In this document: one piece after another, positions 7,330-57,005 of the stretch
How the letters are laid out: each line of letters starts with the position of its first letter
How positions within the stretch are numbered: position 1 is the first letter of the stretch
Source: Nannocystis pusilla
Lineage (GTDB): Bacteria > Myxococcota_A > Polyangia > Nannocystales > Nannocystaceae
Reading direction: 5' to 3'
DNA: 64,000 bases
Assembly (NCBI RefSeq): GCF_026626665.1
Contig: NZ_JAPNKE010000002.1
Span: 6,611,168-6,675,167 of the forward strand
The notes under the pieces: generated by a model
Databases searched by the model: none
Seen by the model: the letters and a program-made list of their open reading frames with translations, nothing else
Told to the model about the DNA's origin: nothing
Made by a program: the position numbers and the translations under genes

Positions 7330-8734
7330 TCTGCTGTCTGCCGGCTTCGCCCTGGCGCCGGTGTGGCCGGCGCTGGCGGCGATCGTGATCGCCCTGCTGC
7401 TGCTGCCGCGCACCCGCCCGTCGGAGCGCCTGGTCGCCCGCGTCACCACCGTCGCGGTGTGGCTCAGCCTGCTCAGCGCCGCCTGCGGGGTGCTGCTGCA
7501 CCTGTCCCATGGGACAGTCGATTATCGGCTCGGCAACTGGTACGACGCCGCCGAGTACAGCTTCCCCCTGGTCATGCTGTTCGACGGCCTGTCGGCGGCG
7601 ATGTCGGCGTTCGTCGCCCTCATCGTCCTGACGACGGTGCGGTTCTCGGTCACCTATCTCCACCGCGAGCCCGGCTTCATCCGCTTCTTCGTGCTCACCC
7701 TGTTCTTCGCCGCCGGCATGCAGTTGCTGGTTCTGGCCGGCAGCGTCGAGCTGCTGTTCATCGGCTGGGAGTTCGTCGGTCTCAGCTCGGTGCTGCTGGT
7801 CGCCTTCTTCCACGAGCGGGCCATGCCGGTGCAGGCGGCCCTGCGCGTGCTCGTCACCTACCGCGTGTGCGACATCGGCCTGCTGCTCGGCGCCGTCGGC
7901 CTGCACCACTGGCTCGGCACCACCGTGTGGGTCGACATCTTCGCCGCGCTGCCGAATCACAGCGGCACCGCGGCCGGCCTCGCGGTCGCGCTGGCGCTGG
8001 TGTTCGCGGCCATGGGCAAGTCGGCGCAGTTCCCGGTCGGCGGCTGGCTGCCGCGGGCGATGGAGGGCCCGACCGCCTCGTCCGCGGTGTTCTACGGCAG
8101 CCTCTCGGTCCACGCCGGCGTGTTCCTGCTGCTGCGCGCGGCGCCCTTGATCGAGCAGTCGTCGACGGCGCGGATCGTCCTGGTCGTGGTCGGCCTCGTG
8201 ACCGCGGTGATCGCCGCGCTGAGCAGCCAGGTCAGCGCCGACGCCAAGTCGGCGGTGGCCCACGCGACCGCCAGCCAGGTCGGCCTGATGTTCGTCGAGT
8301 GCGGCCTCGGCTTCTACACCCTCGCCACGATCCACCTGATCGCCCACGCCACCCTGCGCTACTACCAGTTCTTGCGCACGCCCACGGCCCTGCACGACGC
8401 GCTGTGGCAGCAGGCCGCGCTCGGCCGCACCGACTCCGACGAGGCCGCCGCCCGCTGGGAGGGCGTGGCTCTGGTCCGCCGCCGCGCGCTCTACCGCCTC
8501 GCGCTCGAGCGGTTCGCCGTCGAGCCCGCGCTCGACCGCCTCGTCACCCGCCCGATCATGAACCTCTCCCGCCTGCTCGACCGCCTCGAGGGCGGCCTGC
8601 TCGCCCTGCACGGCCGCCAGCCCGAGGCCGGCACCGGCGCGCCCCTGCCCGTCATGGCGCCCGACATGAACGGCGCCATCGCCCCCTCGCCCGCCCTCGC
8701 GCCCGACCTGCCCGCGCCGGAGGCCCGCACATGA
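7319..8734 (+). CDS. dabB: NuoL-like proton-channel subunit of the DAB complex (DabB-like)
   Basis: A 471-residue polytopic membrane protein of the proton-translocating NADH-quinone/antiporter family. The core GWEFVGLSSVLLVAFF and the GKSAQFPVGGWLPRAMEGPT motif are typical of NuoL/MrpA-like channels. In DAB systems this subunit anchors DabA to the membrane and conducts H+ or Na+ to drive CO2 capture. It overlaps dabA by 11 bp, with GAGGTGA before its ATG, and ends in an ATGA overlap with the next gene. The last 60 residues are a soluble tail. A perfect copy of the 14-bp palindrome lies inside the gene at 7503-7516. Confidence 0.87.
   Translation: MLPDLLSAGFALAPVWPALAAIVIALLLLPRTRPSERLVARVTTVAVWLSLLSAACGVLLHLSHGTVDYRLGNWYDAAEYSFPLVMLFDGLSAAMSAFVALIVLTTVRFSVTYLHREPGFIRFFVLTLFFAAGMQLLVLAGSVELLFIGWEFVGLSSVLLVAFFHERAMPVQAALRVLVTYRVCDIGLLLGAVGLHHWLGTTVWVDIFAALPNHSGTAAGLAVALALVFAAMGKSAQFPVGGWLPRAMEGPTASSAVFYGSLSVHAGVFLLLRAAPLIEQSSTARIVLVVVGLVTAVIAALSSQVSADAKSAVAHATASQVGLMFVECGLGFYTLATIHLIAHATLRYYQFLRTPTALHDALWQQAALGRTDSDEAAARWEGVALVRRRALYRLALERFAVEPALDRLVTRPIMNLSRLLDRLEGGLLALHGRQPEAGTGAPLPVMAPDMNGAIAPSPALAPDLPAPEART
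7503..7516. repeat. Perfect 14-bp palindrome inside dabB-like gene
   Basis: TGTCCCATGGGACA, fully self-complementary, encodes part of HLSHGTV near residue 62. It may be a repeat copy tolerated in a coding region or chance. Confidence 0.45.
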
Positions 8735-23703: not shown

Positions 23704-25358
23704 TCAGAAGTGGAACGCGCCGCCGAGGTACACGTACCAGTCGTCCTTGACGAGCTGGTTCGCCCTGTTCCTGAAGACGGCGTCCTTGTTCGCCCCGTAG
23801 CGCCCCTCGACGCGGAAGGTGAGCTGCGGCAGCGGCAGATATTCGAGGGTCAACGCCCCGCTGTGGCTCTGCCAGCCGTTCGGGGTGTTCGTCCTCAGCT
23901 CTGGGACGATATCGGCCTTGTTGTACAAGTACTCGTAGCGCGCGGCGACGCCGATCTTCTCCGTGATCGCCAGCCGTGCGGAGAACGCCGGCGCGACGAC
24001 GAAGTCATATTTGTCCTTCTCGTTGTTCTTCTGCATGATGAAGTCGAACATCGGGAAGATCAGCCAGCGCTTTCCGAGCCAGATCCTGTAATACAGGTTC
24101 TGGTAGTGCCTGAAGATCGGCGTCTTCTCGCCCGCGGGGGCCTCGTTGCCCCAGTACATGGTCCAGTCGCCGACGATCTTGAACGGCTTGAAGACGCTCC
24201 AGACGAACCCGAACCCCTTCTTGCCGTTCGCGTCCCTGATCTCCTGCCAGCCGTTCAGGACCATCACTCGCAACGTCATGTCCTTGCGGACATGATAATG
24301 GAGCCTGACTCCCGCCTCGTAGTCGGGGGTGAAGTCCGCGATGTACGCGCGCGTGGCGTGGAGGTTCTCCTTGTTCAGGACGATCTCGGCGCCGTAGTAG
24401 GACGGCAGGATGCCGGCCTCGACCGCCAGCTTCGGGTGGAAGAAGTAGTAGATCGCCGCCTCGCGGATCAGCTGCAACGACTTCGGCTCTTCGTTGTACA
24501 GCGACTCGACGATGTGTCCGGCGTGGAGCGCGAAGCGGAACCGGATCTTGTTCGGGATCTCGTACTGGCCCTGCACGAACCCGTACGCCAGCGCGAATTG
24601 GTTGGCGTACAGCGGATAGCTCGTGAAATCGCGTCGGCCGACGTCCTCGACCTCTTGCTTGGTGATGTAATCGTAGTACCGGTGCTTTCCTTGCGGCCCG
24701 AACGCGTAGCCGAAGTCGCCGTACAGGTTCAGCGAGAGGATGCCTCGGCCGACCTTGGTGCTGATCGCGGGTACGACCAGGGTGCGCTTCTCCTTGCACC
24801 GACGAGAGAGGCAGGCGAAGGGCCCCCGCGCCGAAGGGGGTGCGGCCCAGGCCGAGGGGGCGCCCTCCACGACAGCGCCCTGGGGTGTGGGAGGCACCGC
24901 CGCTGGCGCCTCGGAGACGGGCCCTGGCGCCACCGGGTCCGGGGGAACAGTTTCACCGGGCCGGGGCGTACTTTGGGTCGAATGGCGCGCTTGAGCTCGG
25001 CGACCTCGGCGCGCAGGGCCTCGAGCTCACGCCGCAGCTCCTCGGAACCCGCCTGCGGCTGCGTGGTGGGCGGAGCGGTGGGATCGGGAACAGGGACCGA
25101 GTCGGGCGTAGTGGTCGAGGTGACCGGCAGGGTTTGCGTGGCCGTCGGCGACGCGGGCGCGGCGGTCAAGGACGCGGGTGCGTCCGCCTTCGTGACTGCC
25201 GGGGAAGCGGGCGCGTCCGGTGGGGCCGAAGGCGAGGGCGTCGAGACCTGGGAATCGGATGTGCGGGGCGAAGGAACAGGCTGCCAGGCGCCGATGCTGG
25301 AAGGGCTGACGCCTGCGATCGCGAGGAACGCCGTAAGAGTCGTGAGCGGGACGTTCAA
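23704..25358 (-). pseudogene. Outer-membrane beta-barrel (porin-like) protein, one frameshift
   Basis: Two frames form one protein. The upstream one has a signal peptide (NVPLTTLTAFLAIAGV), a Pro/Ser/Thr linker and a short coiled coil, ELRRELEALRAEVAELKR, like trimeric porin headpieces. The downstream one is a roughly 370-residue beta-barrel with alternating aromatic strands and a C-terminal Phe. They join if one base is gained or lost in the C5/G5 run near 24950. The start is either TTG 25358 (GAGGA seven bases upstream, clean signal peptide) or ATG 25409. The barrel resembles putative phosphate- or solute-selective porins, but substrate cannot be told. A hairpin covers the upstream ATG (25401-25420). 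Confidence 0.72.
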
Positions 25359-30349: not shown

Positions 30350-31815
30350 ATGCGGGTCCTCCTCCTCGCGCTCGCGGCGCTCCTCGCCTGTGCGCGCCTG
30401 GGCGGGGCGCGCGGCGACGACGAAGAGCGCGAGGTCCGCGTCGCCGGCGAGCCGCTGTCCGCCGAGCAGCAGGCGCGCCTGGTCGACCACGCGCGCGCCG
30501 GCGGCCTGCTGTGGTGGCGACTGCCCGGCGAGGGCGGCTACCGCTGTGAGCCCTGGCGGCTCGTCCCCGACCCCGGAGATCCCGAGCGGGGCCGCCTCCT
30601 CCTGGTCGCCCCACCTGTCCCCGGGGACAGCCCATCCCTCCCCGCGCCTGCGGACCCGGCCGACGCCGCCGAACAACCTGTCCCCGAGGACAGCCAAACC
30701 GAGGCGCGGGCGGCCGCCCCGCGCTGGCTCTCCCCGCGCCCCAACCTGCTCGCCCCGGCGCACGCAGCTGTCCCCGAGGACAGCTCTCCACGCCCGGGCA
30801 TCCTGCTCGCCCGACCATCCTCTGTCCCCGAGGACAGCTCACGAGAATTCGCCGCCCTGCTCGCCTCGCCGCCCTCGCGGATTCGCAAGGACAGCGCCCG
30901 CCTCGCCCCGGCCCCTCGCTCGTCTGTCTCCGGAGACATCTCACCGCTCACCGCCCTCGCCTGGCCCGTCTTCCCGCCCGCCCCCGCGGACGGCCCCGGC
31001 CCGACCCCCGAGCCTGCCCCGAGCGACATGTCCCTCGGGTCACCCACCATCCAGCTCGGCTATCGCCTGGCCGAGGGCCACCTCACCCTCACCGCCCCCG
31101 AGCACGAGCTCCCCGTCGCCGCTCCCCGGGCACCCAGAAGGCCGTCGGCCGCGCCCTCACCTGCGTCTTCACCGGCATCGCCCTCAGCGGCCCCGCCGGC
31201 GGCGCGCGGCGGCTGATCCTCGCCGCCCGCGAGCGCTTCTTCTTCAGCGAGGAGGCCTGCGCCGGCGCCGGCTTCGCCGACGATCCGCCCGGGCTCGACG
31301 AGCTGCGCACCGTCGGCTGCGCCGGCGCGCTCGCCGATCCGGCCACGCGCGCCCGCCTGGAGCGCCCGCCCCCGCGCGACGCCCCCGACGCCGCCGCCCG
31401 GCTCCACCGCGTCCGCAACCTCCACCACCTCCGGCGCGGCCCCGACGGCGCGCTCGTGTGCGACGTCTGGCGCAACCGGCCCGAGCGGACCGCCGGCCAC
31501 GGCCGCCTCGAGCACCGCGGTCGCGACGAGCGCGGCCGCTTCGTCCGCACCTACGCCTACGACGTCGGCCCGGGCTACCTCACCCTCCAGGGCCCCGCCG
31601 AGTTCCGCCGCATCGAGCTCGACGGCCAGCGCACCGACGTCGTCCGCGCCAGCAGCTGCCTCGTCACCCGCGGCGTCACCCGGGTCGACGCCGCCGCCAT
31701 CGACCTCGGCGGCGAGCGCTGGTACCTGTCCCGAAGTGCATGTGACGCCGCCCGCCTCGCCGGCGCCCCGGCCCCCGCCGGCCCCGTCCCGCTGCTCGTG
31801 CCCGGCTGCGAGTGA
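30350..31815 (+). pseudogene. Secreted protein with repeat-derived Pro-rich linker, one frameshift
   Basis: ATG 30350 begins a signal peptide (VLLLALAALLACARLG). A short folded region follows. Residues of about 85-220 are a Pro/Ala linker into which at least five copies of the 14-bp palindrome are built, giving VPGDS, VPEDS (three times) and VSGDI. Near 31126 (CCCCGG) the frame is lost. Adding one G continues into a conserved-looking 230-residue C-terminal part with RLILAARERFFFSEEAC and YAYDVGPGYLTLQGPAEFRR. Total about 488 residues. Function unknown; no family recognised. Confidence 0.6.
30616..31042. repeat. Palindromic repeats inside a reading frame
   Basis: TGTCCCCGGGGACA 30616-30629; TGTCCCCGAGGACA 30679-30692, 30769-30782 and 30823-30836; TGTCTCCGGAGACA 30925-30938; degenerate TGTCCCTCGGGTCA 31029-31042. 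All true copies are read in the same frame, as V-P-(E/G)-D-S-like peptides. Confidence 0.8.
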
Positions 31816-32334
31816 CCCCCGGCCCCGCGGCCTGTCCCGAAGTACATCCACCCCGCCCATCCTCTCGGCGCCGCGGCCTGTGCCCGACCGCGATCCCCGG
31901 CCCCACGACCTCCCCCGCCCCGCGCGTCCCCAGCGGCCTATCTGCGGACACCACAGCCACCTGTCCCCAGGGTCATGTGACCGACCGCGCTCCCCGCCTC
32001 GCGCGTCACCGCCTGCCCGTCTGCGAACGCCGCAGCCACCTGTCCCCAGGTTCATGTGACCTACTGCGCGCACCGCCTCGCGCGTCGACACCTGCCCGTC
32101 TGCGAACGCCGCGGCCACCTGTCCCCAGGTTCATGTGACCCACTGCGGTGCTGCACGGGCGAACATCCTCGCCCAGCGCGTCCGCGAGCGACCGCACCTG
32201 TCTCGAAGCGCATGTGACACCGATCGCAGCGCCCGCGCTCTCCGCTCCGCCTGCGCCGCCGCCGGCGCTCGCCTGGGTGCGAGGAACCTCGATCCCGCGT
32301 CGCCGGGCACCTCGATCACATGTCCTGAAGTTCA
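31727..32334. repeat. Repeat family variant ending in CATGTGAC, with 79-bp tandem repeat
   Basis: TGTCCCGAAGTGCA 31727, TGTCCCGAAGTACA 31833, TGTCCCCAGGGTCA 31962, TGTCCCCAGGTTCA 32041 and 32120, TGTCTCGAAGCGCA 32199 and TGTCCTGAAGTTCA 32321. All but 31833 continue into TGTGAC. The copies at 31962, 32041, 32120 and 32199 are each 79 bp apart, and the DNA between them (CGCCTCGCGCGTC..., GCCCGTCTGCGAACGCCG) is also repeated for the first three. It is a 79-bp tandem repeat decaying at its right end. Confidence 0.75.
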
Positions 32335-33688: not shown

Positions 33689-33716
33689 GCCGCGCACCCT
33701 GATGCGCGATGAGACA

Positions 33717-33758
33717 TGTTCTCATAGACATGTTCTCATGAACATGTCCTCGAGAACT
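33717..33758. repeat. Head-to-tail 14-bp repeat concatemer
   Basis: Three contiguous units: TGTTCTCATAGACA (33717-33730), TGTTCTCATGAACA (33731-33744) and TGTCCTCGAGAACT (33745-33758). The middle unit pairs perfectly through a T-A pair at the fourth position, a compensatory change against the usual C-G. Confidence 0.75.
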
Positions 33759-39261: not shown

Positions 39262-39275
39262 TGTCCCGCGGGACA
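39262..39275. repeat. Single perfect palindromic repeat
   Basis: TGTCCCGCGGGACA, a fully self-complementary copy just upstream of the FG-GAP remnant. Confidence 0.65.
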
Positions 39276-41240: not shown

Positions 41241-42315
41241 TCAACCGCCGAGCACCCTCTCGAAAAACCACCACAGCCCCGCCAGCACGATCGCCCCCGA
41301 GATCCACTTCGCCCCTCGATATCGGCGGTACGGCTCCCAGCGCCCCAGCAGCAGCAGCACCGGCAGCACCAGCGCCAGCACGGCCAGCTGGCCCGCCTCG
41401 ACCCCGAGGTTGAACAGCAGCAGCGCCGGTCCGACCTCCCCGGCCGGCAGCCCCAGCTCCGCCAGCACCCCCGCGAAGCCGAACCCGTGGACGAACCCGA
41501 ACGGCAGCGTGATCCGCCAGCGCCCGGCCGCGTCCGGCACGAAGAAGTTCTCCACCCCCACGTACGCGATCGACAGCGCGATGGCCGGCTCGACCCATGC
41601 CCCGCTGGGCGTCCAGATCCCCAGAGTCGCCAGCGCGAGGCTCAGCGAGTGGCCGAGCGTGAACGCGGTGATCACCGCCACCAGCGAGCGCAGGCGGCCG
41701 CCGACCACCACCAGCCCGAGCAGGAACACCAGGTGGTCGGTCCCGATCAGGATGTGCTCGACCCCCAGCTCGAAGTACGCCGACACCGGCCGCGCGGGTG
41801 GTTCCGCCTCGCCGCCCTCCATCGCGATCGTCGCCGCCGGCGCGCGCTTGCAGCACCGGCTCGGCGAAGATGTCCTCGGGGCCAGCTCCCGGCCGCTGGA
41901 ACTGCGCCAGGTGGCGGTGCCCGGACGACAGCCCGGCGAACAGCGACCACGTCAGCGTCAGCTCCTTCGGCGGCCGCGCGCAGTCGAAGCGCAGCGCCAG
42001 CGACGCCCCGTCCTCCTCCGTCAGCCACGCCCGCGTCGCCGCCCCGACGCACGCCTCGCCCTCGGCCGCCAGCCCGACCCCCGCGACCACCGGCCCCAGA
42101 GCCGCGCCCGCGCCCGTCAGCTCGGCCTCGCTCAGCGCCCCGTCGCCGTCGCCGTCGAGCCCCGGCGCCAGCGCCCGCAGCTCGCCGCGCGCGAACGTCA
42201 GCTCGACCGTGACCGTCCCCCCGTCGACCGTGTACACCCCGCGCGACAGCCCGACCTGGTGGGCCCCGGCGAGCCGGGGGATGACCAGCCCCAAGAGACA
42301 TGCCCCCAGCGCCAT
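41241..42315 (-). pseudogene. HupE/UreJ-like membrane protein, one frameshift
   Basis: The first frame (ATG 42315) has a signal peptide (LGACLLGLVIPRLAGA) and an extracytoplasmic domain with an EF-hand-like DGDGDGALSEAEL and AFAGLSSGHRH-type ending. The frame breaks near 41845 in GCGCGCGCCGGC. The second continues with HupE/UreJ_2 helices: FELGVEHILIGTDHLVFLLG with His-rich helix, FTLGHSLSLALA and FGFVHGFGFAG. HupE/UreJ proteins are secondary nickel or cobalt transporters beside hydrogenases and ureases, though this variant is common without them. A one-base gain restores about 358 residues. Repeat copies cover the start region. Confidence 0.72.
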
Positions 42316-42356
42316 GCCCCAAGCGACATGTCTGAACGGGCCTGTCCTCTCGAACA
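42296..42356. repeat. Repeat variants over the HupE-like gene start
   Basis: AGAGACATGCCCCCAGCGCC, TGCCCCAAGCGACA and TGTCTGAACGGGCC lie end to end, followed by TGTCCTCTCGAACA (42343-42356). They cover the ribosome-binding site and first codons of the leftward HupE-like gene. Confidence 0.6.
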
Positions 42357-44106: not shown

Positions 44107-45696
44107 ATGACCGTCCGGCAATGCCTGGTGCTCCTCCTCGCCTGCTGCGCGCTCGGCCTGGGCGTCCCGCTGCTGCTGGGCGTCACCTATTCGGCGCGGC
44201 TCTCGTCGCACGACACCGGCTTCTTCGCCGTCCATGTCGACGACGCGATCGCCGCGGACGCGCAGCCGCGTAGACCGCGCCGCAGCGTCCTGGTGGTGAT
44301 CGACGGCCTCGGTCACGAGGCCGCCAAGACCATGGGCGCGATCGCGCTCCTGCGCGAGCACGGGCAATGTCGCAAGACCGCCGTCGGCGTGCCCTCGATG
44401 TCGCGCCCGGTCTACGCCACGATCTCCACCGGCCTCGAGCAGGACCGCACCGGCGCCCGCGGCAACGACGACGAGGCCCCGCTGTTCGCCCAGTCGATCT
44501 GGCAGCGGGCCCGCGCCGCCGGCATGTCGGTCGCGGTCGTCAGCGAGCTGACTTGGTGGGAAGAGCTGTTCCCCGGCGCCTTCACCCACTACGACGTCCT
44601 CCCGCTCGACGCCGACTACTTCACCGCCCTCCCGCCGGCCGACCTCCAGCTCGTCCACCCGCTCTACGTCGACGAGGTCGGCCACGAGTTCGGCGCCGCC
44701 TCGCCCGAGTACGCCGAGGCGGTCGCGCGCGCCGATCGCGAGCTCGGCGACCTGCTGCGCGGCCTCGACTTCGCCCAGGACCTGGTGGTCCTCACCGCCG
44801 ATCACGGGCACTCGGCGCGCGGCGGCCACGGCGGCGCGCAGGAGCCGATCGCCAATGTCATGACCTGCCACGCCGGCCTGGGCGTCCGCCGCGACCCCGA
44901 CTACGGTCATTTGCGAATCACCACAGTCGCCCCGTCGCTGGCGCTCTTGCTCGGCCTGCCGTTCCCGGCCCACATGCGGGCCGGCGACGACGACCTCGAC
45001 GCCCTGTTCGCCATCGCCGACCCGGCCGCCTTCTCGCCCGCGTACCTCGAGGACCGCCGCGCCGCGGTCGAGCGGTTCCGCCGCGCCAATGAGGACGCCG
45101 TGCGCGCGTGGCTGCCCGACAGCGCCGGCAACTGGGACGCCTTCTACGAGCTCTACCGCCAGCGCCACCGCAGCGGCGCGCGGGTGCTGGTCGCCGCGCT
45201 GGCGCTGGTGTTCCTGCTGCAGCTGTGGCTCCACCGCCGGCGCGAGCAGCAGGGCGAGGCCCGCAGCGCCGCCCTGTTCGGCCTCGGCTTCGTGGCGGTG
45301 TTCGGGGCCGTCACCTACGCCCTGCAGGTCGGCCTGCGCGGCAGCTTCGACCTCAGCTCGGTCGCCGGTCGCGCCGACCTCATCGGCTTCACCCTCACCA
45401 TGGGCTTCGGCTGGACCACCCTCGCGGTCGTCGTCCACTGGCTGGTGCGCCGCGATCGCTGCGCCTTGATGCTCGACCTCTCCGCCATCCTGGCGGCCGG
45501 CGCCGTCCTGTCCGCCGCTCACCCGCTGGTGCTCGGCTGGCGCCTCGGCTTCCCCGTCCCCTCGCCCACCGTCTACTTCTTCCCCTACTTCGCCGCCCTG
45601 ATGTTCCCCGCGGTCACCGGCGTCGCCGTCGTCGTCGCCGCCCTGGTCGGCCTGCGCCCGCTCCGCCGCCGCTCGGACATGATCGCCAGGACATGA
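44107..45696 (+). CDS. Membrane-bound alkaline-phosphatase-superfamily protein
   Basis: A 529-residue protein. It has an N-terminal signal/anchor, then a type I phosphodiesterase/nucleotide pyrophosphatase-like domain: VLVVIDGLGHEA (metal Asp), VPSMSRPVYATISTG (nucleophile Ser/Thr), and TADHGHSARGGHGG (metal Asp and His ligands). Residues of about 355-525 add four to five membrane helices. The architecture resembles enzymes that transfer or hydrolyse phosphate or phosphoethanolamine groups on surface glycans, but substrate is unknown. The last codons and stop are made of 14-bp repeat units. Confidence 0.82.
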   Translation: MTVRQCLVLLLACCALGLGVPLLLGVTYSARLSSHDTGFFAVHVDDAIAADAQPRRPRRSVLVVIDGLGHEAAKTMGAIALLREHGQCRKTAVGVPSMSRPVYATISTGLEQDRTGARGNDDEAPLFAQSIWQRARAAGMSVAVVSELTWWEELFPGAFTHYDVLPLDADYFTALPPADLQLVHPLYVDEVGHEFGAASPEYAEAVARADRELGDLLRGLDFAQDLVVLTADHGHSARGGHGGAQEPIANVMTCHAGLGVRRDPDYGHLRITTVAPSLALLLGLPFPAHMRAGDDDLDALFAIADPAAFSPAYLEDRRAAVERFRRANEDAVRAWLPDSAGNWDAFYELYRQRHRSGARVLVAALALVFLLQLWLHRRREQQGEARSAALFGLGFVAVFGAVTYALQVGLRGSFDLSSVAGRADLIGFTLTMGFGWTTLAVVVHWLVRRDRCALMLDLSAILAAGAVLSAAHPLVLGWRLGFPVPSPTVYFFPYFAALMFPAVTGVAVVVAALVGLRPLRRRSDMIART

Positions 45697-45763
45697 TCAT
45701 GAGGACATGACCCTCGGGGCATGCTCTCTCGGGCATGCCCCGGAGGACATGTCCTTCAGCTCA
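45680..45763. repeat. Five-unit head-to-tail 14-bp concatemer
   Basis: Contiguous 14-bp units at 45680, 45694, 45708, 45722 and 45736 (TGATCGCCAGGACA, TGATCATGAGGACA, TGACCCTCGGGGCA, TGCTCTCTCGGGCA, TGCCCCGGAGGACA), then a partial unit to about 45759. Inner base pairs differ between units but TG...CA is fixed. It overlaps the end of the phosphatase-superfamily gene and runs to the crtC stop. Confidence 0.8.
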
Positions 45764-50237: not shown

Positions 50238-50335
50238 GCCATACCTGAAGCGCGACCCCTCGCGCGAGCGCGCCGCCCGACCCCGAGGCCACCCGCCCTC
50301 GCTCGCGGCCTCCGAACCCGGGCCCTCGCACGACC

Positions 50336-50705
50336 TGTCCCCAAGGACACCCGACCTCCACCGCCCGCGCATCACCTGTCCCCGGGGACACCCGACCTCC
50401 ACCTCCCGCACATCACCTGTCCCCAGGGACACCCGACCTGGACCCCCCGCGCATCATCTGTCCCCAAGGACACCTGACCTGACCGCCCGCGCATCACCTG
50501 TCCCCGAGGACACCCGACCTGACCGCCCGCGCATCACCTGTCCCCGGAGACATCTGACATCCACCATCCGCGCATCACCTGTCCCCGAGGACACCCGGCC
50601 TCCTCCGAGCCCGCGCATCACCTGTCCCCGGAGACACCCGACCTCCACCGAGCCCCGCCAATCACCTGTCCCCGAGGACATTGATCCTATCTGTCCCGAG
50701 AGACA
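50336..50705. repeat. Ten-copy array of the palindromic repeat
   Basis: Copies start at 50336, 50377, 50418, 50459, 50499, 50539, 50580, 50623, 50667 and 50692, so most are 40-44 bp apart. Nine have TGTCCCC-NNGGACA or TGTCCCC-GGAGACA cores; the tenth is TGTCCCGAGAGACA. Flanks are also shared (GCATCACC before, CCCGACCT after), so the unit is about 35 bp of repeat plus 6 variable bases. It is a degenerate tandem array, not a CRISPR. Confidence 0.85.
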
Positions 50706-54395: not shown

Positions 54396-56005
54396 ATGTC
54401 CGACCGCCCTGTGCGTCACCCCTGGTCGAAGAACCTCCCGTCCGGCTTCGCCGCACCTGCACTTTGGGACAGCATCGTCATCGGCTCCGGCATGGGCGGC
54501 ATGACCTGCGCCGCCATGCTCGCCGCGCTCGGCCAGCGCGTCCTCGTGCTCGAGCAGCACTATGTCCCCGGCGGCTTCACGCACAGCTTCAAGCGCGGCA
54601 AGTACCACTGGGACGTCGGCGTCCACGCCGTCGGCGAGGTCACCGAGCGCAGCATGCCCGGGCGGCTCCTCGCCGGGCTCACCGGGCGCCGGCTGCAGTG
54701 GGCCTCGCTCGGCCCCGTCTACGACGCCTTCGTCTTCCCCGACGGCCTCCAGCTCGGCTTCCCCGACAACCCGCAGGCCTTCCGCGCCCTCCTGCACGAC
54801 ACCTTCCCGGCCGAGCGCGACGCCGTCGACGCCTACTTCGCCCGCGTCCGCGAGGTCTCGGCGGCCATGCGCGCCTACTACCTGGCCCGCCTCGCCCCGC
54901 CGTCCGCACATGTCCTCATGGACATGTTCACGAGGACAGCCCGCCGCGCCTTCGGCGAGACCGCCAAGCACGCGCTCGACCGCCTCACCGACGATTCGCG
55001 GCTCAAGACCGTCCTCGCCGCCCAGTGGGCCTACCACGGCGCCACCCCGAGCCGGGCCTCCCTGGCGATCCAGGCGCTCGTCACCAAGCACTTCCAGTGG
55101 GGCGGCTATTACCCCGTCGGCGGCTCCTCGGCGATCGCCCGCGAGCTGCTGCAGACCGTCGCCGACGCCGGCGGCTACACGCGGATCTCCGCCGACGTCG
55201 CGCAGATCGTGCTCGAGAACGGCTCCGCGGTCGGGGTGCGCCTGCGCGACGGCGAGGAGCTCGCGCCCGCCGGGTGATCAGCGCGGCGGGCGTCTCTTCG
55301 ACCGTGCAGCGGCTGCTCCCGCGCGAGGTCGCCGACACCCGCTGGGCCGCCAGCGTGCGCGCGCTGCCGCCGGCCCCGGCCCACGTCTGCCTGTACCTCG
55401 GCTTCAAGGGCGACATCCGCTCGGCCGGCGCCGGTGCCTCCAATCAATGGTACTACGATACCTGGGACACCGAGGTCGACGCCTGGGACATCGCCGACCC
55501 CGAGCGGCTCCCCGACGCGCCGGTCCTGTACTGCAGCTTCCCCTCGCTCAAGGACCCCGCCTACGACCCCGGCCCCGAGCAGCGGCACACCGGCGAGGTC
55601 GTCACCTTCGTCCCGTGGGACCGCTTCTCCGGCTGGCTCGGCACCCGCTGGATGCGCCGCGGCGACGACTACGATCAATTCAAAAAGGTCCTGCAGGACC
55701 ACCTGCTCGCGCAATTCCTCAAAAAGCTTCCGGGCCTCGGGCCCATGCTCGACCACGTCGAGCTCTCGACCCCGCTGTCGACCGAGACCTTCGCGCGGCC
55801 GATGCAGGGCTCGATCTACGGCATCCTCCCGACCCCCGAGCGGTTCGCCAACCCCTACCTGCGGCCGCGCAGCAAGATCCCCGGCCTCTTCTTCGCCGGC
55901 AGCGAGGTCGCCACGGTCGGGGTCATCGGCGCCATGATGGGCGGAGCCCTCGCCGCCGCCGCGGTCGACCCGCTCGGCGCCACCCGCCTCCTCCGCGGCC
56001 TCTGA
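54396..56005 (+). pseudogene. CrtI/RetSat-like FAD-dependent oxidoreductase, one frameshift
   Basis: Frame one has the FAD motif SIVIGSGMGGMTCAAMLAALG, then VLEQHYVPGGFTHSFKRGKY and GGYYPVGGSSAIARELL. It breaks near 55270 in GCGCCCGCCGGG. Adding one G joins frame two: RRVISAAGVSSTVQRLLP to FFAGSEVATVGVIGAMMGGA. The restored 536-residue protein belongs to the phytoene desaturase/retinol saturase/carotene isomerase group, so it may act on a double bond of the carotenoid made by the cluster. Two 14-bp repeat units (54911-54938) lie inside the first frame. VanX-like gene starts 1 bp after the stop. Confidence 0.75.
54911..54938. repeat. Two head-to-tail repeat units within a gene
   Basis: TGTCCTCATGGACA (54911-54924) and TGTTCACGAGGACA (54925-54938) are contiguous and encode VLMDMFTRTA-like residues of the oxidoreductase. 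Confidence 0.7.
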
Positions 56006-56006
56006 C

Positions 56007-57005
56007 ATGCCCCGCGCGACGCTCGCCCTCGTCCGCGCCCTCGCTGCAGGCTGGCGCCCGGCCGTTTGCCTCCTCGTCGTCGCGTGCGCCGGACCGCCGC
56101 CGACCGCTCCCTCCCATGTCCTCAGGGACAGCTCGGCCCCCGTCCCCGCTGCGACCGGTCGGACGGCTGCCGGCGCCGGCGCATCGGCCGTCCCCGCGGA
56201 CTCTTCCGTCCCCGGGCAAGCGCCCGCCGGCTCCGATCATCCGGACGAGACATCCCCTGTCCCCGGGGACATCCAGTCCCGCCCCGCCGATCTTTCACAG
56301 CCCGGCCGGCCCTCTGCCCCCGATTCACCACATGTCCCCGAGGACAGCCCGGCGCCCGGCCGCTCGCCTCTCGCCCATGACCCCGAGCCCGGCCGCCCCG
56401 CGCCGCCTGTCCCGAAAGCTATCTCACCCGTCGGCCCTCCGCCGCCGGGCCTCGTCGACCTGCGCGCCGCGCTGCCCGGCGCCTGCTTCGACATCCGCTA
56501 CGCCACCGCCGACAACTTCACCGGCGCGGTCCTGCCCGGCTACGCCGCCGCGGGCGCCTGGCTGCGGCCCCGCCCCGCCGGCGCGCTGGCGAAGGTCCAG
56601 GCCGCGGTGAGCGCGGAGGGCCTCACCCTCCTCGTCTACGACGCCTACCGCCCCGCGCGGGCCAGCCTCGCCATGGTCGAGTGGGCCGAGCGCAGCGGCC
56701 TTCGGCGGCTCGTCGACGACGGCTACATCGCCCGGCGCTCCGGTCACAACCGCGGCGACACCGTCGACCTCACCCTCGCCCGGCCCGGCACCTGCGAGCC
56801 GCTCGACATGGGCACTGCCTGGGACCACTTCGGCCCCGAGAGCCACTACGCGCGGGCCGGCGGCGACGCCCTTTCCCATCGCCGGCGGCTGCGTCGAATC
56901 ATGCAGGCGCAGGGCTTCACCCCCTACGACAAGGAATGGTGGCACTTCACCTTCCGCGACCCCGACGCCGCCGCGCTCGACGTCGCGTACCAGCCCGCCC
57001 CCTGA
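56007..57005 (+). CDS. VanX/DdpX-type D-Ala-D-Ala dipeptidase lipoprotein
   Basis: A 332-residue lipoprotein. The signal LLVVACAG has a lipobox. Residues of about 30-145 are a Pro/Ser/Asp linker full of translated repeat copies (VLRDS, VPGDI, VPEDS). The C-terminal domain (from about 150) is the M15D dipeptidase: FDIRYATADNFTG, VYDAYRPARA, zinc motif SGHNRGDTVDL and EWWHFTF. Such enzymes cut D-Ala-D-Ala; exported versions can recycle or degrade peptidoglycan peptides. In a predatory or bacteriolytic lifestyle a prey-wall role is possible, but that is inference. Confidence 0.85.
   Translation: MPRATLALVRALAAGWRPAVCLLVVACAGPPPTAPSHVLRDSSAPVPAATGRTAAGAGASAVPADSSVPGQAPAGSDHPDETSPVPGDIQSRPADLSQPGRPSAPDSPHVPEDSPAPGRSPLAHDPEPGRPAPPVPKAISPVGPPPPGLVDLRAALPGACFDIRYATADNFTGAVLPGYAAAGAWLRPRPAGALAKVQAAVSAEGLTLLVYDAYRPARASLAMVEWAERSGLRRLVDDGYIARRSGHNRGDTVDLTLARPGTCEPLDMGTAWDHFGPESHYARAGGDALSHRRRLRRIMQAQGFTPYDKEWWHFTFRDPDAAALDVAYQPAP
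56117..56421. repeat. Palindromic repeats inside the dipeptidase linker
   Basis: TGTCCTCAGGGACA (56117-56130), TGTCCCCGGGGACA (56258-56271) and TGTCCCCGAGGACA (56333-56346), plus degenerate copies around 56190, 56208 and 56408. All complete copies are in one frame. Confidence 0.75.

Follow-up and report, generated by a model that had tools for sequence, protein, structure and literature searches.

A genus-specific palindromic motif, probably recognised by a symmetric DNA-binding protein, is read as VPEDS-like linkers in Nannocystis proteins

Why does one short DNA palindrome recur, each time in the same frame, inside the linker of a secreted protein? The window, that is, the whole 64,000-nucleotide stretch of DNA analysed here from the soil bacterium Nannocystis pusilla, contains a gene for a predicted secreted protein with an internal duplication (SP; 30350–31815, plus strand). 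Its linker includes five plus-strand palindromes: TGTCCCCGGGGACA at 30616–30629, read as VPGDS; three copies of TGTCCCCGAGGACA at 30679–30692, 30769–30782 and 30823–30836, each read as VPEDS; and TGTCTCCGGAGACA at 30925–30938, read as VSGDI. All five begin at codon position 3, with spacings of 63, 90, 54 and 102 bp, which bears out the earlier note's claim that they share one frame. The second and third palindromes have homologous copies in the genome G004 at equal 63-bp and 90-bp spacings. A further near-palindrome of the same gene, TGTCCCTCGGGTCA (31029–31042, plus strand), is read in another frame as MSLGSP, and its counterpart in G004 is an intact palindrome, TGTCCCTAGGGACA, read as MSLGTP, which arose in G004 via substitution.

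No Pfam family matches the SP gene; its AlphaFold2 model, built from 4 sequences, has a mean pLDDT of 34 and was not relied on. In this assembly the reading frame switches within a C/G-rich stretch (31112–31141, near 31123), while five orthologues keep one open frame; the change may be a real mutation or a sequencing error, which are indistinguishable here. The protein appears to be internally duplicated (WWRL...RCEPWR / HHLRR...LVCDVWR; L119:2311-3672), and in the second internal copy the linker position holds only a short turn. Directly after the gene lie three 79-bp tandem units with degenerate copies, TGTCCCCAGGTTCA (31913–32147).

The same pattern is found in a second gene of the window, which encodes a lipoprotein-like M15 D-Ala-D-Ala dipeptidase with an N-terminal linker (56007–57005, plus strand; Pfam PF01427). 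At least three in-frame palindromes had been claimed for this linker between 56117 and 56346, and we indeed find three on the plus strand, namely TGTCCTCAGGGACA at 56117–56130 (VLRDS), TGTCCCCGGGGACA at 56258–56271 (VPGDI) and TGTCCCCGAGGACA at 56333–56346 (VPEDS), together with a degenerate copy in the same frame, CGTCCCCGCGGACT at 56189–56202 (VPADS). The M15 homologues of ten genomes from other genera have 0 sites before the domain.

The shared motif is TGTC(C)-N4-(G)GACA, with an extended form AC-n-TGTCC-N4-GGACA-n-GT. In this genome TGTCN6GACA occurs 3616 times against 25 for the reversed control, and TGTCCN4GGACA occurs 1900 times against 4. Within 464 kb of own sequence, in which sites were partly preselected, TGTC-N6-GACA has 176 matches, compared with 1–6 at spacings of 4, 5, 7 and 8, so the spacing of 6 is specific; a contiguous 464 kb holds 143, and permuted half-words give 0–9. 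In unbiased word counts for most of the sampled genomes, no other word family is as over-represented as this motif; in G003 its lead is less clear. Across seven Nannocystis genomes TGTCCN4GGACA is present in 316–2090 copies, versus 0–17 in most other genomes of the family, and the single 14-mer TGTCCCCGAGGACA hardly occurs in the remainder of the class. Two sister genera (G009, G019, G015 and G023) show a moderate excess of 85–147 copies with varied centres, possibly the ancestral state; in the G009 sample (sister genus g4), which was chosen for sites, these lie mostly in predicted coding sequence, again with varied centres. The literature searched, with incomplete coverage, gave no description of the motif.

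In the window as a whole, 95 matches occur at three or fewer mismatches, compared with 14.8 ± 5.3 in shuffled sequence. Copies without an assigned strand include a single palindrome at 7503–7516 (TGTCCCATGGGACA), which differs by one base in G004; a palindrome at 24279–24292 (TGTCCTTGCGGACA), where G006 and G003 carry TGTCCTTGCGAAAG at the same gapless position; a palindrome in predicted noncoding DNA at 39262–39275 (TGTCCCGCGGGACA); and two 14-bp sites head to tail at 54911–54938, TGTCCTCATGGACA and the near-site TGTTCACGAGGACA. A predicted noncoding array of ~41-bp tandem units detected by TRF (50322–50705, plus strand) contains 10 palindromes (50336–50705). The intergenic counterpart of this array in G004 aligns without gaps and has a single intact site; judged from this sequence comparison, the array seems to have expanded recently. 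A phage collection gave no match to it. Motif-like units such as AGACATGTTCTCAT also stand head to tail with an exact 14-bp period at 33712–33751, 42288–42330 and 45675–45710.

These palindromes are copies of a highly iterated motif specific to the genus, and the sequence evidence makes it probable that an abundant DNA-binding protein recognises them as a symmetric dimer and that the linker peptides are by-products. The shape of the motif suggests that an abundant putative protein would bind it as a symmetric dimer, and the sites would be maintained by selection or biased conversion acting on the DNA; constraint on the core is observed, and its cause is our interpretation. Sites would arise from near-sites via point substitution and then multiply locally by tandem duplication, as is seen for alignable copies, and would accumulate where they are least harmful, in noncoding DNA away from divergent promoters and in disordered protein linkers. 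In such linkers the predominant reading is xxT-GTC-CNN-NNG-GAC-Axx, giving V-(P/L/R)-x-D-(S/I/T), and the VPEDS and VPGDS linkers would thus be protein by-products of a DNA-level signal.

The placement of the motif is consistent with this explanation. Gene contexts were taken from 20-kb samples with approximate, home-made codon-usage gene calls; by these calls the motif has a density of 1.20 per kb in noncoding DNA versus 0.16 in coding DNA, and overall it is 7–10 times denser in the former. In noncoding DNA bounded by in-frame stops, a definition that excludes missed linkers, density falls from 2.44 per kb between convergent genes to 1.18 in tandem regions and 0.67 between divergent genes, and in tandem regions the sites lie nearer the end of the upstream gene (median 108 bp vs 298 bp). 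Among 95 coding copies, drawn from our own and five-genome samples, 66 are read in the V..D frame, 26 in the next frame and 3 in the frame containing Cys. The V..D frame is probably favoured because it needs no Cys, and since coding copies generally prefer it, the one-frame regularity of the linker clusters becomes less surprising. In-frame clusters with spacings in multiples of three also occur in an Arf-like GTPase, ScpA, a pseudouridine synthase (as VRGDR), a protein kinase and a cytochrome, while noncoding clusters, unlike coding ones, are often spaced by 14, 28 or 41 bp. At its C terminus, the ScpA protein (SMC_ScpA; L032:6269-10735, minus strand) has an acidic tail several hundred residues long, in which VLED/VLGD units derived from the motif recur.

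Codon use within these units distinguishes DNA from peptide. The codon preceding a V..D unit ends in T in 83 of 98 cases (9% overall), Val is encoded by GTC in 94 of 98, and an A opens the following codon in 83 of 98. An alternative is that the VPEDS peptide itself is selected, as a linker or processing signal, and that the DNA likeness results from the codon bias of a genome with 72% GC; the common frame of most coding copies would agree with this, as would GTC, GAG and GAC being preferred codons. Nevertheless, a rare T-ending codon precedes most units, CCC is chosen although CCG is the preferred codon, noncoding DNA has the motif at higher density, and the same DNA arms encode VRGDR in a basic linker. 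Because the codons fit the motif, and the motif also occurs in noncoding DNA and in other frames, it is the DNA and not the peptide that is kept. Selection on the peptide, contradicted by codon use and by the noncoding copies, was rejected, and we give it almost no credence. Orthologues carrying the same VPEDS peptide in unrelated DNA, the pattern that the earlier note had named as evidence for a conserved peptide, were not seen.

Most of the conservation data come from a single pair of genomes, G000 and G004, whose aligned parts are 95% identical and which keep synteny over 464 kb. At noncoding sites the arms are 91–100% identical between the two genomes, compared with 72–81% for the centre and mostly 70–90% for the flanks, with a mean noncoding identity of 0.893; the cores are identical in 47 of 58 noncoding cases versus 24 expected from displaced pseudo-cores. 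For the arm pair 3/12, the left base departs from the consensus 157 times, with a complementary partner in 14 cases and a consensus partner in 115. The arm positions therefore vary independently, which suggests that two half-sites are read separately, as in a dimer site, and argues against a hairpin. A hairpin acting in RNA at the 3′ ends of genes, whether to terminate transcription or to stabilise mRNA, would match the peak density between convergent genes and, in tandem regions, the shorter distance of sites to the end of the upstream gene; an 8-bp stem could form from the extended dyad. However, compensatory arm changes were not seen and aligned substitutions are mostly one-sided, no Rfam family matched at the gathering threshold, and copies lie inside reading frames. 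The hairpin was rejected on the missing covariation and the missing Rfam match, and we regard it as very improbable.

How copies arise was read from the same alignments. Where copies in G000 and G004 can be aligned, substitutions account for their differences (22 cases in noncoding and 7 in coding DNA, many involving one base). Among indels of at least 10 bp, a single one carries a site, and its length, 37 bp, is not divisible by three. When changes are polarised against N. exedens as outgroup, there are 7 unique gains and 1 loss, all gapless. In the M15 domain of N. exedens, GFTPYDK has become GFVPYDK through a gapless change of CACCCCC to TGTCCCG, in which three adjacent substitutions make a site. 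The SP linkers have grown through tandem duplications that keep the frame, of 54-bp units in G005 and 66-bp units in G006, and these multiply copies locally. Both the length of the linker and its number of repeats differ among orthologues while the flanking domains are conserved, the length variation being what the earlier note had asked to test: the SP linker has 154 residues and 5 sites in G000, 120 and 5 in G004, 153 and 7 in G005, 138 and 4 in G006, and 89 and 1 in G003. In the deep-branching Nannocystis G001 the linker is absent and the flanking parts are directly joined.

These observations bear on a rival explanation in line with the earlier note: a selfish palindromic repeat, similar to REPs, MITEs or Rickettsia palindromic elements (RPEs), that spread by insertion and was tolerated in linkers. 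High copy number, palindromic shape and a preference for the 3′ side of genes all suit such a repeat, as do the precedent of in-frame RPEs (PMC10969869), the missing SP linker in G001 and the large amount of site-bearing DNA that is unalignable. Specifically, 35 of 103 noncoding G000 sites are wholly unaligned even to G004, the closest genome; for this third, in unalignable DNA, other origins including insertion are possible. In alignable DNA, however, gapless substitutional gains and losses dominate alongside the single site-bearing indel, the 4 bases at the centre are unconstrained and the flanks differ from copy to copy, leaving no transposable unit beyond ~20 bp, and conservation of the core exceeds the neutral level. 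We thus consider an insertion-spread repeat unlikely. Spread through inserted 14-bp units, bare or flanked, found no support in alignable DNA, and since sites are gained by substitution and by in-frame tandem duplication, the puzzle of avoided frameshifts mostly disappears. The idea that repeat spread feeds new coding sequence holds in part: the DNA is kept and the linkers vary, but a role for insertion lacks support.

The explanation we favour, binding by a symmetric dimer, also has a point against it: the scarcity of sites near divergent promoters is not what an ordinary regulator would show. Recognition for methylation or DNA uptake would leave footprints similar to those of binding. Uptake sequences, namely the DUS of Neisseria and the USS of Pasteurellaceae, are clade-specific and present in hundreds to thousands of copies, and they occur in coding sequence with a frame or orientation bias (PMC2346458). 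A comparable self-recognition sequence for natural transformation, accumulated by biased conversion, could produce genus specificity, thousands of copies, substitutional gain and permissive coding frames in Nannocystis, features known from uptake sequences (PMC2346458; see also PMC2397512). The motif is, though, a symmetric dyad with a free centre, which DUS and USS are not, and its 14-bp head-to-tail arrays, dense clusters and strong noncoding preference also fit poorly, so that we judge this explanation improbable.

A broader proposal, which we put forward tentatively and hold to be possible rather than likely, is that ~3600 selected sites form a genus-specific, chromosome-wide network for an undescribed architectural DNA-binding protein, and that amplification from the ~100 copies seen in sister genera to thousands rewrote and enlarged disordered linkers in many proteins unrelated to one another. 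If this is true, the specificity of a DNA-binding protein shapes the proteome. More generally, the motif appears to be a clear case of amino-acid sequence being set in many proteins at once by selection or drive at the DNA level, and it can be followed through seven genomes. It also offers a direct route to a probably abundant, putative site-specific DNA-binding activity in Nannocystis, and it warns that repeated VPEDS-like linker peptides need no protein-level explanation.

Finally, we compared the motif with known systems. The operator dyad of CviR, a LuxR-type protein, is CTGNCCNNNNGGNCAG (PMC10847564), and the Nannocystis consensus CTGTCCNNNNGGACAG (ACCTGTCC-N4-GGACAGGT) fits this palindrome, like a lux box, by resemblance only. 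Unlike LuxR/CviR operators, the Nannocystis sites number thousands and are comparatively sparse between divergently oriented genes. The AHL-binding LuxR domain PF03472 was found in 2 of 7 Nannocystis genomes, weakly and near the cut-off, and an AHL-type LuxR was rejected as the binder since this domain is not genus-wide; proteins with a GerE-type HTH are present in all seven genomes, 5–20 each, as in relatives. REPs are stem-loops with a GTAG or CGTC tag and are associated with RAYT transposases. The motif resembles them in being palindromic, abundant and on the 3′ side of genes, but its consensus has no GTAG/CGTC tag, its arms show no stem covariation, and copies lie inside coding sequence. 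RPEs are palindromic repeats that lie within unrelated proteins and are read in frame with them (PMC10969869), and the motif likewise occurs in frame inside unrelated protein-coding genes, although an RPE is an inserted element of ~100–150 bp and the Nannocystis copies share only ~20 bp. HIP1 (GCGATCGC) of cyanobacteria is a short, clade-wide palindrome of very high copy number that is described as spreading by nucleotide substitution (title of Robinson 1997, as cited in PMC4390886), and the Nannocystis motif shares with it both the clade-wide, extreme over-representation of one short palindrome and the propagation by substitution. It differs from HIP1 in sequence, being TGTCC-N4-GGACA rather than GCGATCGC, and in forming a 14–20-bp dyad with a free 4-bp centre that is clustered in arrays and linkers and enriched in noncoding DNA. 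Because neither the HIP1 sequence nor an inserted element was found, the motif belongs to neither family; by analogy, it appears to work most like HIP1 among known systems, and its consequence for proteins resembles that of RPEs.
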